Source of the DNA: Stephanodiscus triporus
Taxonomy: Eukaryota; Bacillariophyta; Thalassiosirophyceae; Thalassiosirales; Thalassiosiraceae
Direction: 5' to 3'
Length of the DNA: 12,548 nt
Assembly (NCBI GenBank): GCA_036939755.1
Contig: JALLAZ010000713.1
Location: 1-12,548, forward strand
Of this stretch, positions 2,682-12,548 are shown one piece after another. The translations under genes were made by a program, and so were the position numbers. Position 1 is the first letter of the stretch, and every line of letters starts with the position of its first letter. A model generated the notes under the pieces. That model searched no databases, was not told the DNA's origin, and saw only the letters and a list, made by a program, of their open reading frames with translations.

Positions 2682-2790
2682 CTAAGAACCACATTGAGCT
2701 CGATGAAAAGTTTACTTTTTGAGCACAATAGGAATCGGCAGTCAACAGACAGACAGGGGAGAAAGAATCTTGGCGTAGCCAGAATTGTAG

Positions 2791-2811
2791 CTCCGACGTG
2801 GTACGTCGGAG
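2791..2811 (+). promoter_or_regulatory. First LTR hairpin (9-bp stem, 3-nt loop)
   Basis: CTCCGACGT at 2791-2799 pairs perfectly with ACGTCGGAG at 2803-2811 around GGT. In the inner 3' LTR (8297-8317) one base differs but still gives a G-U pair in RNA; in the outer 3' LTR (8567-8587) there is one C-A mismatch. It lies in the presumed U3 part and also in the pol reading frame. It could be a transcription factor palindrome or an RNA structure; the sequence alone does not tell which. Confidence 0.6.
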
Positions 2812-2838
2812 TGGCTAAAAAAGGGAGAGGTAGAGAGT

Positions 2839-2865
2839 AGAAGTGAGCGCGAGGGGCTCACTTCT
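2839..2865 (+). promoter_or_regulatory. Second LTR hairpin (10-bp stem), possible R-region element
   Basis: AGAAGTGAGC (2839-2848) pairs perfectly with GCTCACTTCT (2856-2865). All three LTRs keep the 10-bp stem exactly, while the loop varies in both length and sequence: 7 nt in the outer copies, 6 nt (GCCAGA) in the inner one at 8355-8360. This suggests that the stem is under constraint. A T/A-rich run follows the second arm. The second arm is also the part complementary to the primer binding site, so the two foldings are mutually exclusive. Confidence 0.65.
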
Positions 2866-2925
2866 TTTAATTTATCTAACAATACAATGTTATGCGTTTA
2901 GCATCTGATCGACGTATTCTCAACA

Positions 2926-2945
2926 TAAATTAAAAGAAGCGAGCC
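2926..2945 (+). promoter_or_regulatory. Putative self-primer binding site
   Basis: The 20 bases directly after the 5' LTR, TAAATTAAAAGAAGCGAGCC, are the reverse complement of 2855-2874 in the LTR with a single mismatch (2940 against 2860). Pairing extends one more base (2925 with 2875). A tRNA 3'-end primer would require a site starting TGG, which is absent. In Tf1-type retrotransposons the 5' end of the genomic RNA folds back onto a complementary site at this position and primes cDNA synthesis; the geometry here is the same. A primer 3' end at 2874 would lie exactly opposite the LTR edge. A half-tRNA primer cannot be excluded without a tRNA set. Confidence 0.65.
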
Positions 2946-2976
2946 AGGCGGAAGACACCTAACGAGAGAAGAAGAA

Positions 2977-3177
2977 ATGAGCCAGCAGGCGGCGGTCGGC
3001 CGAGGAGGCGGACACGGCGGCGGCGGCAGCAGGAGGCTGCACAGATTTTCCCTTCGAGGGAGGGGAGGAGGCGCGACAGCGCCGAGCAAGGCGTACGAGT
3101 CGCCGATCGCGGAGATCGTGAAGCACACCTTCAATACCGGCGAGAACAGATTCGCCGCCCAGTTTACGGAATCGTGA
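2977..3177 (+). pseudogene. gag: Gag N-terminus, cut off by an in-frame TGA
   Basis: The first ATG after the 5' leader opens a 66-codon frame in phase with the main gag-pol ORF. It has an RGG-like, glycine- and arginine-rich start (GRGGGHGGGG, RGRGGG), as RNA-binding proteins often have. It then has SPIAEIVKHTFNTGENRFAAQF, followed by TGA at 3175-3177. Beyond the TGA the same frame continues (ERVAGYIQRGGMDESYL) into the ATG at 3211. I recall related Gag proteins as continuous here with an Arg at the TGA position, so CGA to TGA is the simplest explanation. Confidence 0.75.
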
Positions 3178-3210: not shown

Positions 3211-6200
3211 ATGGACGAAAGCTACCTCGTCGCTGAGACCATCAGGACAGGAAAAGCGCAAACGATCGAGCTACCACCCCCCGTCGACGCTAATGCCCCC
3301 GACAAGGAAGACCTGGAGGTCATTCGGGTGGAAGTCGTTAAATCCGTCGCAAAGAGGCGACAGAAACTAGAGGAGTCCCTAAAAAAGGGATATGCTACCG
3401 TTTACGATCAGTGTTCGCAAGAGGTGCAAGACAAGTTGAAGGCGACCAAGGGTTGGGACGCGGTGCAGTCACAACAGTCGCTGCATGAGCTTATCAAGAG
3501 AATCGAAAAAATTTGCGTGGGGTTCGATGACCATAAACAGTCGGTCTATAATTTGGTCCAGTCCCTCAAGACTCTATTCCTGTACTCACAATCGGAAAAG
3601 GAGACAGTGGAGGAATACACGAGGAACTTCCGCAGCCTGTGGGACACGGTCGAGGCATTCGGCGGATCCCCGGGAATACAGGATGGGCTCGTAGGGCAGG
3701 AACTGAGGAGGAGGGGGATCACTAATCCCACCCCCACGGAGTTGGCCGAGGCGGAAGACGTGTCCATCGAGCAGGTAAAGGCAGCGATGCTGATCAGCGG
3801 GGCAAGTCGTCAGCAGTACGGCAAATTGAAGGACGAGCTGGCGAACGATTATCTGCTGGGGTCGGATAATTATCCAGACACACTGGAGAAGGCAGCGAGA
3901 ATCCTTGCCAACTATCAGAACACAAGAACATTTGCACCCTACAGAGCAAGTGGAAACGAGACGGGAGTTTCATTTCTGCAGCAAGGAGGAAGAGCAGGTC
4001 GGGGTGCAGGAAAAGGAGGGCAAGAGAGCCGAGGAGCGAAGACCGAGAGCAAGACTGGAACCGGAGAGTCCTCTGGGAGCGGAGGAGACGACGTAAGCAC
4101 GATCACCGGGCAAACCGGTGGGGACGGCGTGAAGATGAACAGCAAAGGGGAATCCCACTGCTTTAATTGCGGGTCCCCGAGCCACTGGGCCTACGAATGC
4201 CCCCAACTCAGCAGAGAGCAGCAATCTCAGCTGCACATGAACTTAGAAGCGCAGGAGGAGACCACACAAGAGGCGGCTGAGGAAGCGCATCAACTGCTGA
4301 ACGTCACGCTTGTACAAGGAGGCGAGCTTCCCGAGGACAGGGTGTATCTCGATGGTTGTTCCACCGTCACAGCCTTCAAGAATGACAAGTACTTGAAGGG
4401 AATCAAGAGCGAGGCACAAGGGGTGCGAATCAACTGCAACGCCGGCGCAATCTCCACGAACAAAAGAGGAACCTACGGGAACCTCAAGATGTGGTACGTG
4501 CCAGACGGCATTGCCAACATTATTTCGATGCACGAACTGGAGAAAATGTACCGGATCACCTACGACAGTTGGCAGGGGTACTACGTTGTACACACCCCAA
4601 AAGGAGAGGTTCGGTTCCACAAGGACGAACAGGGGCTTCCCTATTTGGATCTGGAAGAGTCGAGTGAGGCGGCAGTGATGCTACTGCAACGCGAACAAGA
4701 TTCAGACGCGACGGAAAACCAGACTGAACACGAAGAAGAGGCGGCTCTCGTACAGACGGTGCGAGGGAACTACAAGGGGTACACCAAGCGTGAAGTACTG
4801 AAGGCGAAAGAGGCACGCAGGGCACAGGCCATGATGGGTAACCCAAGCGAAAAGGACTACAAGACAATGGTGAGCAACAACTTAATTCCAGAATGCCCCG
4901 TCACCGTGTCAGACATAACTAATGCAAGAGCCATCTTTGGACCAGATCTCCCAAGCATCCGAGGCAAAACTGTTCGGGCGAGACCTGCACCAGTCGTGGG
5001 GGAATATGTGGCGGTGCCGCGGCAATTGATCGATGCAAACAGAGCGTTGACGTTGGCTGCTGATGTATTCTTTGTTGATGGAACGGCGTTCCTTCTGACG
5101 GTGGCTCGAAGGATCAAGTTTGTGACGGCGGAGCACTTGCCATCGAGGACGGCGCTGAACATAAGCAAGCACATGCAGCGAGTTCTCGACGTGTACAAGC
5201 GAGCGGGGTTTAGAGTAAGAACTTTACTAATGGATGGGGAATTTGAAAAACTCAAACCGCTAATGCCTAACGTAGAATGCAATACTACGGCGGCTAAAGA
5301 ACATGTCAGCGAGGCAGAGAGGACCATCAGGACGCTGAAGGAGCGAATGCGGGGGTTGGTGAACACGCTCCCATTCGAGTATCTCCCTCGACAAATGAAG
5401 ATCGAGTTTATCTACTTTATGGTCCTGTGGATGAATGCTTTCCCAGTGAAGTCTGGAGTGTCTGACAAGATATCGCCGCGTGAGTTGCTTTTGCATTGGC
5501 GGCTCAACTACAAGAAGCATTGTCGGGTGGAGCCGGGAACATACTGTGAGGTACACAATGAACCCACCCCAACAAACACCATGGCGCCGCGTATGCACGA
5601 GGCAATAGCGTTGGGGCCAACAGGAAACCTGCAGGGCAGCGTAAAATTCTACTGCATAAATACCGGTCGAGTGCTTAAACGCCGCTCCTTCACGCCCATG
5701 CCGATGCCGGCTCATGTGATACGTCGAGTCAACGCCATCGGGAAGAAAGAGAAGCAGGGTCGGACATTTCGTTTTCTGAACCGACGTGGGGAGCCATACG
5801 AATGGAGTGACGAGGTGCCGGAGGATGACCCCGAGTTCCAAGGGTTGTTAGACGAGACTGAAGAGACGGCAGTGTATCCGGATATCAGTGCTGAGCTTCC
5901 AGGAGTGGCACTTGAAGAACACGAACAGGACTTCCAGCCTGTCACGGACGAACCACCGGCTGACTTTCGAGACCTTTCTGGGGATGCCCTGTACAATGCC
6001 GGAATCGACCCTGATGAGGCCCTCTGGCGGGCTTATCTTGTGAACAACACACAACCAGCAGTAATTGAAGCCGACGACGACGAGCTGGTATACGAACTAA
6101 CATTCGACCTGCCGGACGCAGGGCTTGCACCACCGCTTGCCGATCCAGCTGTACCGTTGGGTGAGAATAGAAACGACGAAGGCTGTGTCATCATACCCGA

Positions 6201-6603
6201 CGACACTGACAACCCTCCATCGGACGGTCGACGCTATCCGACACGAGCTCGCAGGAGTGTAATCGGGAATCAACCATACGATGCATATGCCCCACGGACA
6301 ACCTTCCTACAGTTGGGAACGGTGCAAGCGCACAGGAGTGTCCTTGAGGCGAATAGCAGGCTGGCGCGGATGACGACAGAAGAACGACTGCTGACGATGA
6401 CGACCACGGTATCAGAGGCATTTGTGGATGACGCAATTCACCGAGTGGATCGGGTCATGTGCACGACATCAGAAGAGGAGCTGGGGGTGATGGCATATAT
6501 CTTGACGCAATACAACTTGAAACCGGGATTGCGGAAGTTTGGAATACGAGGAGAAAAAGCTGCTTTGAAGGAAATGACTCAACTCCACATCATGGACATG
6601 TGA
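3211..6603 (+). CDS. gag-pol: Copia Gag-protease-integrase polyprotein
   Basis: The open frame is 1130 codons. Residues about 45-230 are a copia-type Gag (UBN2-like) region that forms the particle. A CCHC zinc knuckle, C317-x2-C-x4-H-x4-C330, binds the RNA. The aspartic protease is marked by LDGCST (D381), a variant of the usual D-S/T-G. The later VPDGIANIISMHEL segment is the conserved block between protease and integrase in this group. The integrase core has D618 (ADVFFVDG), D675 (LLMDGEFE) and E701/E703 (HVSEAERTIRTLKER) as candidate catalytic residues. The C-terminal 200 residues are acidic and poorly conserved. It ends at TGA 6601-6603 just before reverse transcriptase, in the same frame. 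True translation probably began at 2977. The 3.4 kb without a break suggests recent activity. Confidence 0.93.
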   Translation: MDESYLVAETIRTGKAQTIELPPPVDANAPDKEDLEVIRVEVVKSVAKRRQKLEESLKKGYATVYDQCSQEVQDKLKATKGWDAVQSQQSLHELIKRIEKICVGFDDHKQSVYNLVQSLKTLFLYSQSEKETVEEYTRNFRSLWDTVEAFGGSPGIQDGLVGQELRRRGITNPTPTELAEAEDVSIEQVKAAMLISGASRQQYGKLKDELANDYLLGSDNYPDTLEKAARILANYQNTRTFAPYRASGNETGVSFLQQGGRAGRGAGKGGQESRGAKTESKTGTGESSGSGGDDVSTITGQTGGDGVKMNSKGESHCFNCGSPSHWAYECPQLSREQQSQLHMNLEAQEETTQEAAEEAHQLLNVTLVQGGELPEDRVYLDGCSTVTAFKNDKYLKGIKSEAQGVRINCNAGAISTNKRGTYGNLKMWYVPDGIANIISMHELEKMYRITYDSWQGYYVVHTPKGEVRFHKDEQGLPYLDLEESSEAAVMLLQREQDSDATENQTEHEEEAALVQTVRGNYKGYTKREVLKAKEARRAQAMMGNPSEKDYKTMVSNNLIPECPVTVSDITNARAIFGPDLPSIRGKTVRARPAPVVGEYVAVPRQLIDANRALTLAADVFFVDGTAFLLTVARRIKFVTAEHLPSRTALNISKHMQRVLDVYKRAGFRVRTLLMDGEFEKLKPLMPNVECNTTAAKEHVSEAERTIRTLKERMRGLVNTLPFEYLPRQMKIEFIYFMVLWMNAFPVKSGVSDKISPRELLLHWRLNYKKHCRVEPGTYCEVHNEPTPTNTMAPRMHEAIALGPTGNLQGSVKFYCINTGRVLKRRSFTPMPMPAHVIRRVNAIGKKEKQGRTFRFLNRRGEPYEWSDEVPEDDPEFQGLLDETEETAVYPDISAELPGVALEEHEQDFQPVTDEPPADFRDLSGDALYNAGIDPDEALWRAYLVNNTQPAVIEADDDELVYELTFDLPDAGLAPPLADPAVPLGENRNDEGCVIIPDDTDNPPSDGRRYPTRARRSVIGNQPYDAYAPRTTFLQLGTVQAHRSVLEANSRLARMTTEERLLTMTTTVSEAFVDDAIHRVDRVMCTTSEEELGVMAYILTQYNLKPGLRKFGIRGEKAALKEMTQLHIMDM

Positions 6604-6990
6604 ACGCCTATGGACGTGAGAAAGCTGACACGGGAGCAAAGGATGAGGGCACTGTCCTCACTGCTCTTCCTCAAGGAGAAACGAACGGGAGACATCAAGG
6701 GCAGGGCATGCATCAACGGGGCGCCTCAACGCACGTACATTCCGAGAGAGGATGCGGCATCGCCTACTGTGTCGACAGAATCGACATTCATTACCGCGAC
6801 CATCGCAGCCAAGGAAGGAAGGAAGGTGAGGTGCTATGATGTACCCAGCGCATTCGTCAACACGGACGTGGACAAGGACGTCATAATGGTGCTCAAGGGA
6901 GAGTTGGCGAGCCTCATGACCCAGATTGCGCCTGAGGTATACAGGAAATATGTCACGGTAGACAAAAAGGGACGCCTGTTCTCTATGTGA
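6604..6990 (+). pseudogene. pol: Reverse transcriptase, N-terminal part
   Basis: This continues the gag-integrase frame after the TGA at 6601-6603. It opens with a linker (DVRKLTREQRMRALSSLLFL KEKR) typical of the start of copia RT in this group. Then come ASPTVSTEST and the motif A region with its Asp at 6838-6840 (CYDVPSAFVNTDVD). The frame closes at TGA 6988-6990 because one base seems to be missing near 6976-6984. The text LFSM here becomes LYVKLQKALYG when read in the next frame. This part binds template and carries one of the metal-binding Asp residues. Confidence 0.88.
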
Positions 6991-7919
6991 AACTTCAGAA
7001 GGCACTTTATGGACTGATGAGAGCAAGCATACTCTTTTACAGGAAGCTCCGGAGGGAGTTCGAACGATATGGACTGGTGATCAATCCATACGACCCATGC
7101 GTGGCCAATATGGAGACTAAATCTGGGAAACAACTCACTGTGGTGTGGCACGTGGATGATCTCATGGCGTCATGCGAAGACGATTTTGAACTGACGAAGT
7201 TCTCATGCTACATGGGGAGGATATATGGGCCGACTCTAAGTATGCACCTTGGGAAGAAGCACGACTATCTTGGAGTGGATATGGAGTTCTGCGACGACGG
7301 AGCGCTGGAGGTGTCGATGGTTAAGTATCTCAAGAGTGTTATCGACGAATTTCCAGAGCTGATCAGGGGACGTGCGGCGACGCCGGCGCACGACAAACTG
7401 TTTGAAATCAGAGACGATAAGGATGCTAAGAAGCTGAACGAGGAACAATGCCTAGCATTCCATCACACGGTAGCACAACTGCTGTTCATGGCAACGAGAG
7501 CCAGACGAGACATTCAAACGGCAGTGGCCTTTCTCACGACGAGAGTAAAGAGTCCAGACGAGGACGACTGGGGGAAATTAAAGCGCGTGCTAAAATATCT
7601 CAATGGGACGAAGTATCTAAAATTGAGATTGACCGTGGATAACCTGTCAGTACTGAAATGGTATGTGGACGGGTCACACAATGTGCACTGGGACTGCAAA
7701 GGCCATGGGGGAGCGGTATTCTCACTAGGAAAAGGGGCGACCTCGAGTTACTCAAGGAAACTAAAAATGAATACAAGGAGCTCCACTGAGACGGAGTTGG
7801 TGACGGCGGATATGTTCATGCCGGAGATGTTATGGTGTCTGCATTTTATACAAGCGCAAGGATACCAGGCGGAATGTGTGGGCTATATCAGGACAACATC
7901 AGTACTCAGCTGCTCATAA
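6987..7919 (+). pseudogene. pol: Reverse transcriptase palm/thumb and RNase H
   Basis: The frame resumes one phase earlier. It shows KLQKALYGLMRAS, then the catalytic motif HVDD (7149-7160, the copia form of YVDD), then HDYLGVDMEF and the connection with VAQLLFMATRARRDIQTAVAFL. RNase H follows, with KWYVDGSHNVHWDCKGHGG and SSTETELV. Near 7880-7890 a base is lost and the last 10 or so residues before the stop are out of phase. All recognisable catalytic residues are present in their separate frames, so the inactivation is by frame rather than by loss of active sites. Confidence 0.9.
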
Positions 7920-8053: not shown

Positions 8054-8346
8054 CTAAGCCACTGCAGGGAACAGCATTCAGGGTAATGAGAGCTGAGCTG
8101 ATGAATTGCGATGTGAATTATGAGGATCCGCCAGAGGAGGAATTGACACAACCCATTCGTGGCCCTAAAACGGTGTCATGGAAGGAAGACGTCGCATCTC
8201 CCTACAAGACCCCGCAGGAGTGTGTTGGGCAGAATGGGAATCGGCAGGCGGAGCACAGACAGACGAGAAGAAATTTGGGCGTAGCCAGATTGAGGGCTCC
8301 GACGTGGCATGTCGGAGTTTCTAAGAGAGGAAAAGGTAGAGAGTAG
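8041..8346 (+). pseudogene. pol: Pol C-terminal tail, running into the 3' LTR
   Basis: GDIMTKPLQGTAFRVMRAELM is the usual end of copia pol. The frame continues through PKTVSWKED and about 41 codons into the LTR at 8223, ending at TAG 8344-8346. The same frame and stop are found in the duplicated copy (8431-8616), with no length change before the stop. The LTR-encoded tail is basic (RRNLGVAR, RGKGRE). Whether these residues matter for the protein is unknown. Confidence 0.75.
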
Positions 8347-8430
8347 AAGTGAGCGCCAGAGCTCACTTCTTTTAATTTATCTAACGATACAATGTCATGC
8401 GTTTAGTGTCATATTGACGTCTTCTCAACA
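8223..8430 (+). repeat. Inner 3' LTR
   Basis: It is 208 bp, TGTTG to CAACA, with both hairpins (8297-8317 and 8345-8370). About 37 differences separate it from the outer 3' LTR. The only length difference from the other LTRs is one base in the loop of the second hairpin. Upstream there is only a weak purine run (GGAGTG) where a polypurine tract is expected. Confidence 0.9.
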
Positions 8431-8492
8431 AGCCCGAAGACGGTGTCATGGAAGAAGGACATTGCATGTCCCTTCAAGACACCCCTGGAGTG

Positions 8493-8701
8493 TGTTGGGC
8501 ACAATAGGAATTGGCAGTCGACAGACAGACAGGGGAGAAGGAATCTTGGCGTAGCCAGAATTGTAGCTCCGACGTGGTACGTCAGAGTTGCTAAAAAAGG
8601 GAGAGGTAGAGAGTAGAAGTGAGCGCGAGGGGCTCACTTCTATTAATTTATCTAATGATACAATGTTATGCATTTAGCGTCTGATCGACGTCTTCTCAAC
8701 A
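8493..8701 (+). repeat. Outer 3' LTR
   Basis: It is 209 bp, TGTTG to CAACA, about 94% identical to the 5' LTR at 2717-2925. It is followed by TTATT, which matches the TTACT before the 5' LTR at 4 of 5 bases. This suggests that the 5' LTR and this copy are the two ends of one insertion event. Confidence 0.92.
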
Positions 8702-8866
8702 TTATTCATCATTTATGAGTTCTTGGGGTAATTCTTGGTTTGCCCCATCTCGCATCGTTGGCTAATTTATCGCCAGGTTGTGGATATATTGGGAAACAGC
8801 CGTTATGTTGTAACGGTATTTTGTTTTCCTTTCTCGTCACAAGTTAGTATGTGACGCTTGTGACTA
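8702..8866. other. Inter-element spacer with two small hairpins
   Basis: These 165 bp separate the two elements and probably represent older resident DNA. No coding frame is evident. CCGTTA (8800-8805) pairs with TAACGG (8811-8816) around TGTTG; CGTCACA (8835-8841) pairs with TGTGACG (8850-8856) around 8 nt. The second lies within 10 bp of the DNA transposon's target TA. Short stems of this kind are frequent and may be chance. Confidence 0.5.
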
Positions 8867-8890
8867 CCGTAGAACACGCTGTCTAAGCAA
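8867..8890 (+). repeat. Left terminal inverted repeat
   Basis: It starts CCGTAGAACACGCTGT and ends CTAAGCAA, after a TA at 8865-8866. CTAAGCAA recurs at 8899-8906 just inside, giving a possible second transposase-binding half-site. The right end has only one such motif. Confidence 0.85.
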
Positions 8891-9124
8891 CATGCGGCCT
8901 AAGCAATCCACGAGAAAATGCACCCCTAAGTATGATTGATCTTCTCAATTTGACCTTTATCCTACGTAAGTAAGTGATATGAACAGTTTTCCTATTGAAA
9001 AGACGATTCCAACGGTGTGTGGTGACCCTATGGTCCCTTTGTGCTGGTGTGTACTAGTATGCACCCAATCTAGAAAAAGCGCTAACAAAAATCACTAACA
9101 AAATTGCTACGAAACCCCCCAACA

Positions 9125-9826
9125 ATGGCTCCTTCCGAAATGGTTGCCTGGGAGTGCGGCGCGTGCACCTACACCAACGAGGACAGCACGCGCCGCAACT
9201 GTGAGATGTGCATGACGGAGCGCCCGCTCCGTTACGCCATCGTGCCCGGCTCGGCTGGTGCGGCGAGCGCCAGGACGGTTAGCGTCAATCGTCGCGAGCA
9301 GGTGCTCCTCGCGGCTGCGGCTGCTGTTGCGCGACGCCGCGATGAGCCTGCCGCTGACGTAGCGGCTGCGGCTGTTGCGCCCGCTGACGCGGAGGAGGCG
9401 CCTGAAGGTCGTCGTGCCGCCGCCGTCGCTCGCATCGTCGGGACGCTTGTCGATGTTGTCGGCACCTCCGCCGAAGACCGCGGTCGCAGCTGCAGCCGCC
9501 ACAAGTGCCGTGGTCACCAGGTCACGAAGGGGAGTGTGCTTCGTTTTGCGTGTGAGAGGATGGCGTGGCGGGACCAGGGGAGGGTGGAGGATGTGCTCGC
9601 AGTGTACGCCGTGGAGCCCGACGGCACGCCGGGGTGCAAAGTCGGTTTTTTGCCCCAGCATTTGGCAGTGCGCCCACTCGCGTACGATGGTGTTTACGCC
9701 CGCGTTGTATCGGTCTACAGCGACCGATCCAACAACAGCGTGAAACGCCAGAAGTTCTGGCGTAACATGGGGTGCTGCGTCGCGTGTGTGGTGGGCGATA
9801 CGCTCAAGAGTTGGAGGGGGGATTAA
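9125..9826 (+). CDS. RanBP2-type zinc finger protein of unknown role, transposon-borne
   Basis: The protein has 233 residues. ATG 9125 is chosen because it has a good context (A at -3, G at +4) and the more upstream codon at 9104 is a TTG. Residues 9-29 form a RanBP2-type zinc finger: W9-x-C11-x2-C14-x3-N18-x7-C26-x2-C29. Such fingers bind RNA, ubiquitin or protein partners. Residues 50-115 are Ala/Arg-rich and probably disordered. Residues 118-228 form a compact-looking domain I cannot name: CSRHKCRGH, then GCKVGFLPQHLA, YDGVYARVVSVYSD and NMGCCVACVVGD. There is a faint likeness to HIRAN-type domains (GFLP...), which is speculation. It lies inside the transposon's terminal repeats and faces the transposase gene. 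A transposition helper, a regulator or a captured host gene are all possible. Confidence 0.78.
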   Translation: MAPSEMVAWECGACTYTNEDSTRRNCEMCMTERPLRYAIVPGSAGAASARTVSVNRREQVLLAAAAAVARRRDEPAADVAAAAVAPADAEEAPEGRRAAAVARIVGTLVDVVGTSAEDRGRSCSRHKCRGHQVTKGSVLRFACERMAWRDQGRVEDVLAVYAVEPDGTPGCKVGFLPQHLAVRPLAYDGVYARVVSVYSDRSNNSVKRQKFWRNMGCCVACVVGDTLKSWRGD

Positions 9827-9946
9827 GAGGGGGGATTAATACATTGTCATTAACGTTAAATAGTTCTTAGATTAAATTAAAGTGACATTAACATCAAAAC
9901 GAAACTTATATAGTTAAAACATTAACATTAAGATTCTTCGTTAGGA
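9827..9946. other. AT-rich gap between convergent genes
   Basis: About 120 bp, strongly A/T-rich with repeated ATTAA and ACATTAA motifs (9838-9930), between the stops of the two convergent transposon genes. It probably holds the 3' ends and poly(A) sites of both. I see no exact AATAAA; ATTAAA occurs near 9871. Confidence 0.5.
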
Positions 9947-9964
9947 TTAAGATTCTTCGTTAGG
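9927..9964. repeat. 19-bp tandem duplication at the transposase stop
   Basis: ATTAAGATTCTTCGTTAGG occurs twice in a row (9927-9945 and 9946-9964). The inner copy encodes the last codons PNEES and the TAA stop (9947-9949) of the transposase. The outer copy repeats the same text after the stop, so the duplication leaves the protein unchanged. Confidence 0.9.
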
Positions 9965-11388
9965 TGCGGGGTAATAAGAATACCCCGTCTTGCGCCACGC
10001 GTTACGGATTGTCTCCGCGCTGACATTTTTCTGCGCGGAGATAATCCATTCCGCGAGCTGATGGCGCGTAGACCCAGGGATGGGGAGGTCAGGATCCTGC
10101 GAAAACATCCACGTGTTGTATTCGTCGCGCATCTTGGCCTTGAACGCCTTGTTGTAGCCGACGTCGACCGGCTGCACGAGTCCCATGCAGCCGGCGGCGA
10201 CGAACTCAACTTGTACGCCAAGCTTCTGGATGGCGTCGACGACCGACGGCATCATGTGACAGCTGAGCTGGTCAAGGAGGAGAAGCGGAACGATCCCCGC
10301 CAGCGCCTTGGCAGCCCATGGCACGAGGACAAGCTGGATCCAGTCGAGCATAATCTGCTCGTTGAACCATGCCTTCTCGTTGACGCGGTAGAAGGCGCCG
10401 TCGGAGAGTGTCGCGAGCTCTCTCTTAGCAATCCTCCCCTTTGGCTTGCCTACGACGAGTGACAAGCAACAATAAACCGTTAGAATGTTTCACAGGAAAA
10501 GTTTGATGTACACTTTGTCTTACCCTTGAAAATGATCAGCAACGGGAGCTGATGCCCCGACGCTGTGATTGTCACAGCAACAGTGATGCGCTTTGAGTCA
10601 CCGACGGAAGTGCACACGTTGATCGTGCACCTTCCAATGGTGTCGATTGTCCCCTTTGCTGTCATGGCGTGCCACATAGGGGTCTGGTCCATGTTCGCTG
10701 TAAACTCCAGCGAACGGTTCGAATCGTTCACAATCGGACGGAGGACCTCGAGGTAACCGAGGGCCTCCTGGCTCTGCTCTTCGGGCGGGCGCTGCACTTC
10801 ATGTGTAGACATGCGGTGGGTGAGATTATTTTTCGCCATAATGCAAGAAATTGCTGCTTTCTGCGCAGGGAGAGACTTTTCAGCCAACGCTGGAGCCAGT
10901 TGGCAAGCCTTTCTCACAAGAGAAAGACGAGAAACAGGGAGTCCCTTGAAGCGCCACTCGTCCACGAAAGTGACAAGTTCCGCCTCGACATCATCAAGGA
11001 GACCCGCTGGGCCTTTAGCCAGCTTGAATTTATCCCGCCCACTGGCAACAGCAGCTTCAAGCTGCTCAGCGCTCGCGCGCCACCTGGATACTTGGGAGGA
11101 GCTCACCTGCAAAGCGACAGAAGCTTGGTTCTGATTCATGTTCTCCGTCCTCATCAGCTGCTCCACCGAAGAAAGAATCTGCAGCTTCTCGCTTGCAGGA
11201 TACTGCTTGCAACGCTGTACAGCACTGTCCATTTGTTTGGCAAGGCGCGCACGGCTGGGACCACCGGGATTGTACAGCTTCGTCTTCATTCCACTTTGTG
11301 GGAGGAGATCGATGGATTGCTCCCACAAACACAAATGAGTTGGGGCTACTGGAGGACATGGTACAACATCGCACGGCAACAAAGCCAT
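9947..11388 (-). CDS. Pogo-like DDD transposase (CENP-B/DDE_1 family), two exons
   Basis: Exons are 11388-10524 and 10449-9947, joined across a 74-nt intron to give 455 residues. The start is the ATG at 11388; an internal Met34 (11289) just before the first conserved residues is an alternative. Residues 45-110 hold a Psq/CENP-B-like helix-turn-helix (LQILSSVEQLMRTENMNQNQ, SSSQVSRWRAS). Residues 125-200 look like the second, Tc5/CENP-B-type DNA-binding domain. The catalytic triad is D234 (NMDQTP), D348 (LLLLDQLSCH) and D384 (QPVDVGYNK), with 35 residues between the last two, as in pogo elements. It cuts and pastes the element at TA sites by binding the terminal repeats. The only gap in homology is the intron, so the gene looks intact. 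Confidence 0.9.
10450..10523 (-). other. 74-nt spliceosomal intron in the transposase gene
   Basis: On the minus strand the exon ends AAG-G, then GTAAGA starts the intron. A CTAAC branch-site-like motif lies in TTCTAACGG, and the intron ends CGTAG before GCAAGCCA. Splicing joins the two DDE half-frames exactly in phase (FK-G-KPKGR). Without splicing the first frame meets a stop 14 codons later. Confidence 0.85.
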
Positions 11389-11488
11389 GCGCCAAAAAAT
11401 AATGATGGAGAGGACCGACGTAGGAATACTACAAAAAAACTATGTTGATAAGTTAGATTCTTGGTGCAAGAAAGAGGGGACATTTTCA

Positions 11489-11512
11489 TTGCTTGCACTG
11501 CGTGTTCTACGG
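11489..11512 (-). repeat. Right terminal inverted repeat
   Basis: Read on the minus strand this starts CCGTAGAACACGCAGT and ends CAAGCAA, matching the left repeat at 21 of 24 bases. A TA follows at 11513-11514. The transposase ATG lies about 100 bp inside, so its promoter must overlap or adjoin this repeat. Confidence 0.85.
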
Positions 11513-11576
11513 TATTCTGATTCAGATGTGCGTCACCACCCAATTCAGATGGCCCAACCTCCATTCTCTCTGTGGC

Positions 11577-12361: not shown

Positions 12362-12548
12362 AAAAAGTCCCAGTTTGCGTGGTAAAACTCAGACTCTTAC
12401 CTAGGAGTACCTAGTTAAAAAGTCTCAGTTTTTGTGGTAAGAGTCCCAGTTTGCGTGGTAAAACTCGGACTCTTACCTAGGAGTACCTAGTTAAAAAGTC
12501 TCAGTTTTTGTGGTAAGAGTCCCAGTTTGCGTGGTAAAACTCGGACTC
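12362..12548. repeat. 76-bp tandem repeat array (about 2.4 units, continues past window)
   Basis: Units start at 12366, 12442 and 12518 (AGTCCCAGTTTGCG...). The first two full units differ at one base (A/G at 12390-12391 region). Each unit contains two related 20-21-bp pieces (AGTCCCAGTTTGCGTGGTAA and AGTCTCAGTTTTTGTGGTAA, 17/20). It also holds the inverse of their junction (GACTCTTACC against GGTAAGAGTC) and a small palindrome CTAGG-AGTA-CCTAG (12401-12414). It could be a minisatellite or the repeated end of a further mobile element. Confidence 0.9.

Follow-up and report, generated by a model that had tools for sequence, protein, structure and literature searches.

Covariation between a primer binding site and its own LTR points to self-priming in a Ty1/copia-type retrotransposon of the diatom Stephanodiscus triporus

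We report that a decayed Ty1/copia-type element of a diatom-type lineage, found in the genome of Stephanodiscus triporus, very probably primes its minus-strand DNA with its own RNA. The first-pass annotation had proposed self-priming for this copia lineage and suggested testing whether an LTR segment and the primer binding site (PBS) behind the LTR co-vary among relatives. Such covariation was found and supports the proposal, as do a set of 5′ LTRs identified from the gag start that follows and the lack of a fit among the tRNAs compared.

Results

A decayed Ty1/copia-type element

We analyzed a stretch of 12,548 nucleotides (the window), which is contig C706 of an assembly searched over 21.65 Mb and 1324 contigs. 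Judged by its sequence, the element in the window is a Ty1/copia LTR retrotransposon, with an LTR pair that has TG...CA ends (apart from the TT at the start of the 5′ LTR), a probable target-site duplication and a reverse transcriptase of the RVT_2 type (Table 1). The reverse transcriptases of the relatives C1310, C737, and C1276 score above the Pfam cut-off, whereas the pieces in the window score below it. The match is to RVT_2 (copia) and not to Ty3/gypsy, and the window frames examined gave no match to a chromodomain and no Pfam match to an integrase. The start of the 5′ LTR was set against the TGTTGGG of the 3′ LTR, and a repeat search of the window aligned 2719-2926 with 8495-8702 at 94% identity. 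The copy is decayed: its gag frame meets a stop before 3211, where the listed open frame begins, its reverse transcriptase is split and its LTRs are 94% alike. In the genome set, 27 of 30 LTRs end in CAACA, in a count by a script that admitted only CAACA, CAACT, CAAAA, and CAGCA. The 3′ end of the element (8162-8702) holds two tandem LTR copies with a 270-bp spacing. Roughly 60 bp of related internal sequence stands before either copy, an arrangement that recombination between two related elements or a template switch might have left.

Table 1. Features of the retrotransposon, in window positions
Feature	Position	Strand	Basis or remark
Probable target-site duplication TTACT	2712..2716	+	partner TTATT at 8702-8706, 4/5; read from sequence
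5′ LTR	2717..2925	+	209 bp by our own reading; 3′ end CAACA; terminal TG is TT here
Extra bases complementary to 2941-2945 in the window copy	2855..2859	+	no covariation among relatives
Predicted RNA 5′ end, A of TCACTTC	2860..2860	+	PBS covariation absent from A2860 outward; initiator-like YCAYTYY
Putative self-primer segment, 14 nt	2861..2874	+	14/14 complementary to 2926-2939; co-varying in 12 elements
Predicted leader hairpin H1	2878..2898	+	arms 2878-2881 / 2895-2898, 13-nt loop ATACAATGTYATR; RNAalifold, pair counts, and larger LTR set
Predicted leader hairpin H2	2901..2915	+	arms 2901-2905 / 2911-2915; weaker than H1
Primer binding site (PBS)	2926..2945	+	co-varying part 2926-2939
gag start codon, ATGAGYCARCA motif	2977..2979	+	motif 51 nt behind first PBS base
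1130-aa reading frame, CCHC zinc knuckle	3211..6603	+	PF00098, 21.4 bits (cut-off 20.8)
Reverse transcriptase, two separate pieces	6610..7919 (6610-6990, 6987-7919)	+	PF07727, 28.2 and 30.0 bits, each below the 31.6 cut-off
Inner 3′ LTR copy	8223..8430	+	part of 270-bp duplication; 198 nt at 81%
Outer 3′ LTR	8493..8701	+	repeat search of window

Other features lie on either side. Inverted repeats at 8862-8890 and 11489-11517 (29 nt, 86%) enclose a DDE_1 frame on the minus strand (9947-10465), and the stretch 8862-11517 is probably a DNA transposon. A 571-aa frame on the minus strand (375-2090) has no Pfam match and 139 relatives; among the 120 listed, three are named, all from diatoms. Its GAGLRGEEV presumably resembles a tyrosine recombinase box. 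A 76-bp tandem repeat (12363-12548) runs up to the window end.

The PBS is complementary to a segment of the adjoining LTR

Repeat and pattern searches confirmed the observation of the first-pass annotation that 2926-2945 is the reverse complement of 2855-2874 at 19 of 20 positions, the sole mismatch being A2860. That the site adjoins the 5′ LTR also holds, since CAACA closes the LTR at 2925 and 2926 is the first base of the site. The repeat search delimited the inverted arms as 2855-2875 and 2925-2945 (21 nt, 95% complementary). When the window was searched for the 20-nt complement with up to three mismatches, four places were found: the site itself (minus strand, no mismatch), 2855-2874 (one mismatch), and 8360-8379 and 8631-8650 (two each), which lie within the two 3′ LTR copies. 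The 20-nt complement was found in none of 200 shuffled windows. The predicted fold of the RNA from 2855 to 2945 has -28.9 kcal/mol, whereas 200 shuffles average -10.4 (z -7.3). The element carries what characterizes self-primed elements, a PBS that adjoins the LTR and finds its complement within the LTR, not in a tRNA.

Complementarity is found behind every gag-called 5′ LTR

LTRs of the same genome were collected by DNA similarity (19 matches), by a conserved R-U5 core (30 matches), and from the flanks of reverse transcriptase hits, so that all copies come from one genome and the loci were gathered mainly via LTR similarity. We called a 5′ LTR where a core match was followed within 200 nt by the gag start ATGAGYCARCA, a motif first noted in known copies. 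Because the call depends on the gag start, the copies were not chosen for complementarity, the property under test. Of 46 distinct rows matching the core, 12 were 5′ LTRs by this rule (identical C737 repeats counted once), and in each of the 12, 13 or 14 of the 14 bases that follow the LTR are complementary to the LTR segment. The first-pass annotation had named relatives that keep the site but lack complementarity to the LTR as evidence against its proposal; there were none among these 5′ LTRs. The other 34 rows include 17 LTRs that carry a segment of this kind but lack a gag start; their flanks score 2-6/14. C890, also with no gag start behind it, scores 9/14 in the gag-rule set and 7/14 in another alignment, and may be decayed or not a 5′ LTR. 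The remaining 16 rows (1-7/14, one of them unscored at a locus end) are, as far as can be told, chance core matches or partial LTRs.

A pattern fixing TCACTT, CAACAT, and AAG and leaving 10 PBS bases free gave 12 matches, all in the family of the window element. C1310 has LTRs identical over 252 bp and a 14/14 primer-PBS pair, so that the signature is present in a young-looking copy; its flanks hold no evident target-site duplication. In C737 (102, 5600, 11142) and C1276 (4799, 10274) we observed head-to-tail arrays with LTRs about 5.5 kb apart and a PBS behind each, in which adjacent elements seem to share an LTR. C172 has CAACA followed by TAATAATTATTTTAG near a contig end. C513 contains an inverted repeat of similar geometry, for which no LTR pair was found, and the C763 and C158 stretches contain no inverted repeat.

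LTR segment and PBS change together

Among 168 primer-PBS cells in the 12 elements, 165 are Watson-Crick pairs, none is G-U, and three are mismatched (one each in C732, C1204, and C737). Counting the 14 primer pairs and the pair with the last LTR base, 10 of 15 pairs changed on both sides, four are invariant and one departs only by a mismatch; no cell shows a one-sided change that keeps a standard pair. The pairs include 15 further pair types, which implies at least 15 paired changes whatever the tree. Four of five covariation measures were reached by none of 500 shuffles, and the fifth, the pair-type count, by eight. In slid registers 37-49% of cells are paired, versus 98.3% in the true register, and with 13 distinct pairs (C890 included) none of 100000 permutations reached the observed total. 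In close copies one exchanged pair makes the difference, at position 5 for C706 versus C283 and at position 9 for the two C1276 copies (a and b). The expectation that the two segments co-vary is thus borne out both by these changes and by the complementarity of all 12 5′ LTRs.

The covariation has an outer limit. At 2856-2860, 37 of 60 cells are paired across the 12 elements, no better than in shuffles, and the PBS side varies there without any pair changing on both sides; positions -2 and -3 are often paired. As covariation is absent there, the pairing of 2855-2859 is not supported as part of the primer. A2860 itself is paired in only three of 12 PBSs, and PBS base 15 is C in seven, T in three, and G in two. 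A C copied from the cap opposite A2860 was considered and is not claimed. Since positions 1-3 and 14 show no paired variation, the covariation locates the primer 5′ end no more closely than positions 0 to 4.

Predicted RNA start and limits of the putative primer

The oomycete initiator (INR) is described as YCAYTYY in excerpts of PMC3599244. The TCACTTC around A2860 fits this consensus, which is that of oomycetes, and by eye 10 of 12 elements match it at the boundary (C304 and C732 do not). Since the covariation ends at A2860, within TCACTTC, 2861-2874 is the best placement of the primer; the RNA would start near A2860 instead of at about 2855, as first proposed. The predicted RNase H cut after A2874 is retained, since priming from that base would give the LTR its CAACA end. 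A 10-bp hairpin, AGAAGTGAGC/GCTCACTTCT at 2839-2865, spans the predicted RNA start, with a 3′ arm that shares bases with the PBS partner. Within the 3′ LTR of the RNA, such a hairpin might mask the primer segment's second copy.

A predicted leader fold with two local hairpins

Given the alignment as sole input, RNAalifold returned the primer:PBS helix with two hairpins inside it, in a consensus of 93 columns that reaches 20 nt into the PBS. Between primer and PBS the leader is accordingly modeled with two local hairpins, of which H1 is well supported and H2 weaker. H1 has four pairs, three of which changed on both sides, and 97.9% of its cells are paired; in the window copy one of the four pairs is broken. 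None of 500 shuffles scored as high as H1 in covariation, the count of pairs changed on both sides was reached by 99 and the pair-type count by 499. In 33 distinct R-U5 segments, a count that keeps three segments resembling chance matches, 119 of 132 H1 cells are paired (0 of 20000 shuffles as high). In H2 one pair changed on both sides and is broken in three of 12 elements, including the window copy, and the score was reached by 17 of 500 shuffles.

Folded singly from A2860, 12 of 13 elements keep at least 12 of 14 primer pairs in the minimum-energy structure, the exception being C890. With 30 nt more upstream, C1174 also loses the primer pairs and C732 keeps 11. At the U3-R junctions an upstream hairpin taking in GCTC or GCTCACTT is predicted. 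A covariance model of the leader, run on 72 sequence sources, found no new element; it recovered the known 5′ LTRs, lower-scoring LTRs that lack a PBS and weak opposite-strand echoes. A search of 2700-3100 against Rfam gave one match, PrrB_RsmZ, with 17.7 bits of a 44-bit gathering score (E 0.055), which we took as chance.

None of the tRNAs compared fits the site

We compared the sites with 48 tRNAs from 47 of 64 tRNA hits in the assembly, and none fits. The remaining 17 hits, outside the comparison, all lie on C208, a contig that is probably mitochondrial because it carries a COX1 frame with nine in-frame TGA codons. A pattern search for the eukaryotic initiator tRNA found none, so that not all nuclear tRNAs are in the set. 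In 10 elements the best ungapped match was 9-10/14, a value reached by 128-200 of 200 shuffles. As some tRNAs in that comparison carried extra letters, clean sequences were also compared: the longest exact match around the window PBS was 7 nt, and at most 9 nt in any element. C967 and C1314, of another copia lineage that we considered as a possible tRNA-primed control (L089 301-400, L095 661-760), have short LTR-like repeats followed by GGTTAYGA, which we take to resemble the complement of the tRNA-Met anticodon loop; this site had no match longer than 7 nt among the tRNAs compared.

Lineage of the probably self-primed copies

RVT_2 matches number at least 100 in the genome. We placed 43 reverse transcriptase rows in a tree, several deep joins of which rest on long branches. 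A single group of 10, with a support of 98/94, takes in all five rows of self-primed elements, namely two of C737, one each of C1276 and C1310, and a piece of the window copy. This group also holds P0001, P0003, P0005, C763, and C989, where primer sites were not seen, and is nested in a larger group with proteins of Conticribra and Cyclostephanos and one tagged CCRYP, which we take to stand for Cyclotella cryptica; C967 and C1314 are placed elsewhere. Named relatives are mostly diatom copia proteins, about 40-50% identical, which together with the diatom relatives of the 571-aa frame makes a diatom host probable. The others are a distant Phytophthora protein and two with prokaryote MAG labels, probably contamination. 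Pattern matches in IMG/VR and the prokaryote genome set included none encoding a relative, and the plasmid collection gave no match in 'near' mode.

Discussion

A model of self-priming

From these data we propose how the element would prime its minus-strand DNA. Transcription would begin at about A2860 in the LTR, within the initiator-like TCACTTC. The first 15 or so nucleotides of the RNA would then fold back so that 2861-2874 pairs with PBS 2926-2939, a pairing that rests on the covariation, with the two hairpins in the loop. By analogy with Tf1, and judging from the LTR edge, the RNase H of the element's reverse transcriptase would cut after A2874, and the freed 3′ end would prime strong-stop DNA, so that the LTR ends with CAACA. 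Finally, the plus-strand DNA would copy the primer and rewrite the PBS, and the two segments would stay complementary while both drift. We infer this rewriting because the changes are paired with no G-U intermediates and because the covariation ends near the proposed RNA start. Selection for pairing alone would pass through G-U, of which we saw none, and copying from a template explains this; moreover, if the plus strand copies the primer, the end of the covariation should mark the primer 5′ end and hence the RNA start. One point speaks against the model: the pairing of A2860 in just three of the 12 PBSs is unexplained by copying if A2860 itself is copied.

Other explanations of the complementarity

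The stem might be kept for another purpose, such as packaging, dimerization, or translation control, with a tRNA or other RNA priming elsewhere. It is strongly folded and encloses conserved hairpins, as a packaging signal might. We consider this very unlikely, as the 3′ arm starts immediately after the LTR, in the place of a primer site, the site fits none of the tRNAs compared and selection for pairing alone should leave some G-U among the 168 cells. Priming by a tRNA half molecule, which would make the LTR match a coincidence or by-product, is known from some copia lineages (PMC6317226, in part). We largely reject it, and give it next to no credence: none of the 48 tRNAs compared fits, the ungapped matches are no better than those of shuffles, exact matches stay short, and the site changes freely between close copies.

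An explanation close to ours is priming in trans, in which the PBS is bound by a short RNA from the LTR of another copy or by the genomic RNA's own 3′ LTR end. The same segment is present in the 3′ LTRs, and evidence from pairing cannot separate cis from trans. We regard trans priming as improbable, since covariation stops at an initiator-like motif, as expected of an RNA 5′ end and not of a segment inside the 3′ LTR, and since among the 13 distinct pairs the own match averages 13.2/14 versus 8.9/14 for cross matches, though between some relatives cross matches reach 14. It shares most steps with self-priming and is compatible with the model. Self-priming by the element's own RNA is the reading that we prefer.

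More tentatively, the primer-PBS pair may act as a private priming code, rewritten in each replication cycle and drifting fast, with the hairpin leader replacing the tRNA in recognition; we rate this extension as possible but doubtful. If it is true, families in one nucleus would tend to carry different codes, reducing the priming of one another's RNA, and the end point of the covariation would read out the RNA start from DNA alone.

What is new

The principle of self-priming is not new, as it is known from Tf1 and has been proposed for the plant TAR copia elements. In the literature as far as available to us, the demonstrated case is Tf1, and complementarity is the basis for the others. In the window family, both segments change together, base for base, across a naturally occurring set of relatives. 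The covariation evidence and the leader fold appear to be new, and the model departs from the known cases in its copia branch, its longer primer and the way its leader would fold. The second large LTR superfamily would thereby gain a further branch with this mechanism. For diatom-type copia we found no report of self-priming: literature searches on CoDi and copia self-priming gave no diatom case, and none is described in the excerpts of PMC5445492, PMC6317226, PMC3601003, PMC2806351, PMC7466962, PMC5006619, PMC4600332, PMC2206039, PMC4659654, PMC3599244, PMC10085805, and PMC7175516. The main text of PMC2806351 contains neither 'tRNA' nor 'self-prim', and its sole 'PBS' is a buffer. Our data suggest that PBS searches based on tRNAs would miss such elements, and covariation between PBS and LTR offers a way to infer RNA start sites.

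Comparison with known systems

Among diatom elements, the CoDi copia elements (Maumus et al., 2009) may be akin to ours: the nearest named relatives are mostly diatom copia proteins, which group with our element in a tree built without a CoDi reference sequence. Copia of Drosophila uses a tRNA half as primer. The first-pass annotation had given this as the rule for classic copia, a background that needs an addition from the available part of PMC6317226: self-priming has been proposed or predicted for the plant Ty1/copia TAR lineage (Houba, Osr-1), and most other plant copia groups use a whole tRNA-Met primer. The TAR lineage, which we compared by its description, resembles the window family as a Ty1/copia lineage with proposed self-priming; it differs in being from plants and, in that same part of the article, in resting on predictions without a covariation test. 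The fungal GalEa copia elements, according to excerpts of PMC5445492, lack a tRNA-type PBS and have a conserved hairpin site, for which their authors found no complementary LTR segment, whereas the window family has one.

In mechanism the window family resembles Tf1 and the Tf1/sushi chromoviruses. In Tf1, as described in parts of PMC10085805 and PMC7175516, the PBS is complementary to the RNA 5′ end and a short primer is freed by RNase H; complementarity of the PBS to an LTR segment is shared, and here too that segment would be the RNA 5′ end. However, Tf1 belongs to Ty3/gypsy and has an 11-nt primer, whereas the window element is Ty1/copia and its primer would be 14 nt long. The leaders appear to differ as well: in Tf1 of Schizosaccharomyces pombe, sequence next to the PBS pairs with the LTR in two additional duplexes, giving a three-duplex structure, the 'pretzel', whereas the window family is predicted to form two local hairpins between primer and PBS, in a fold that reaches 20 nt into the PBS.
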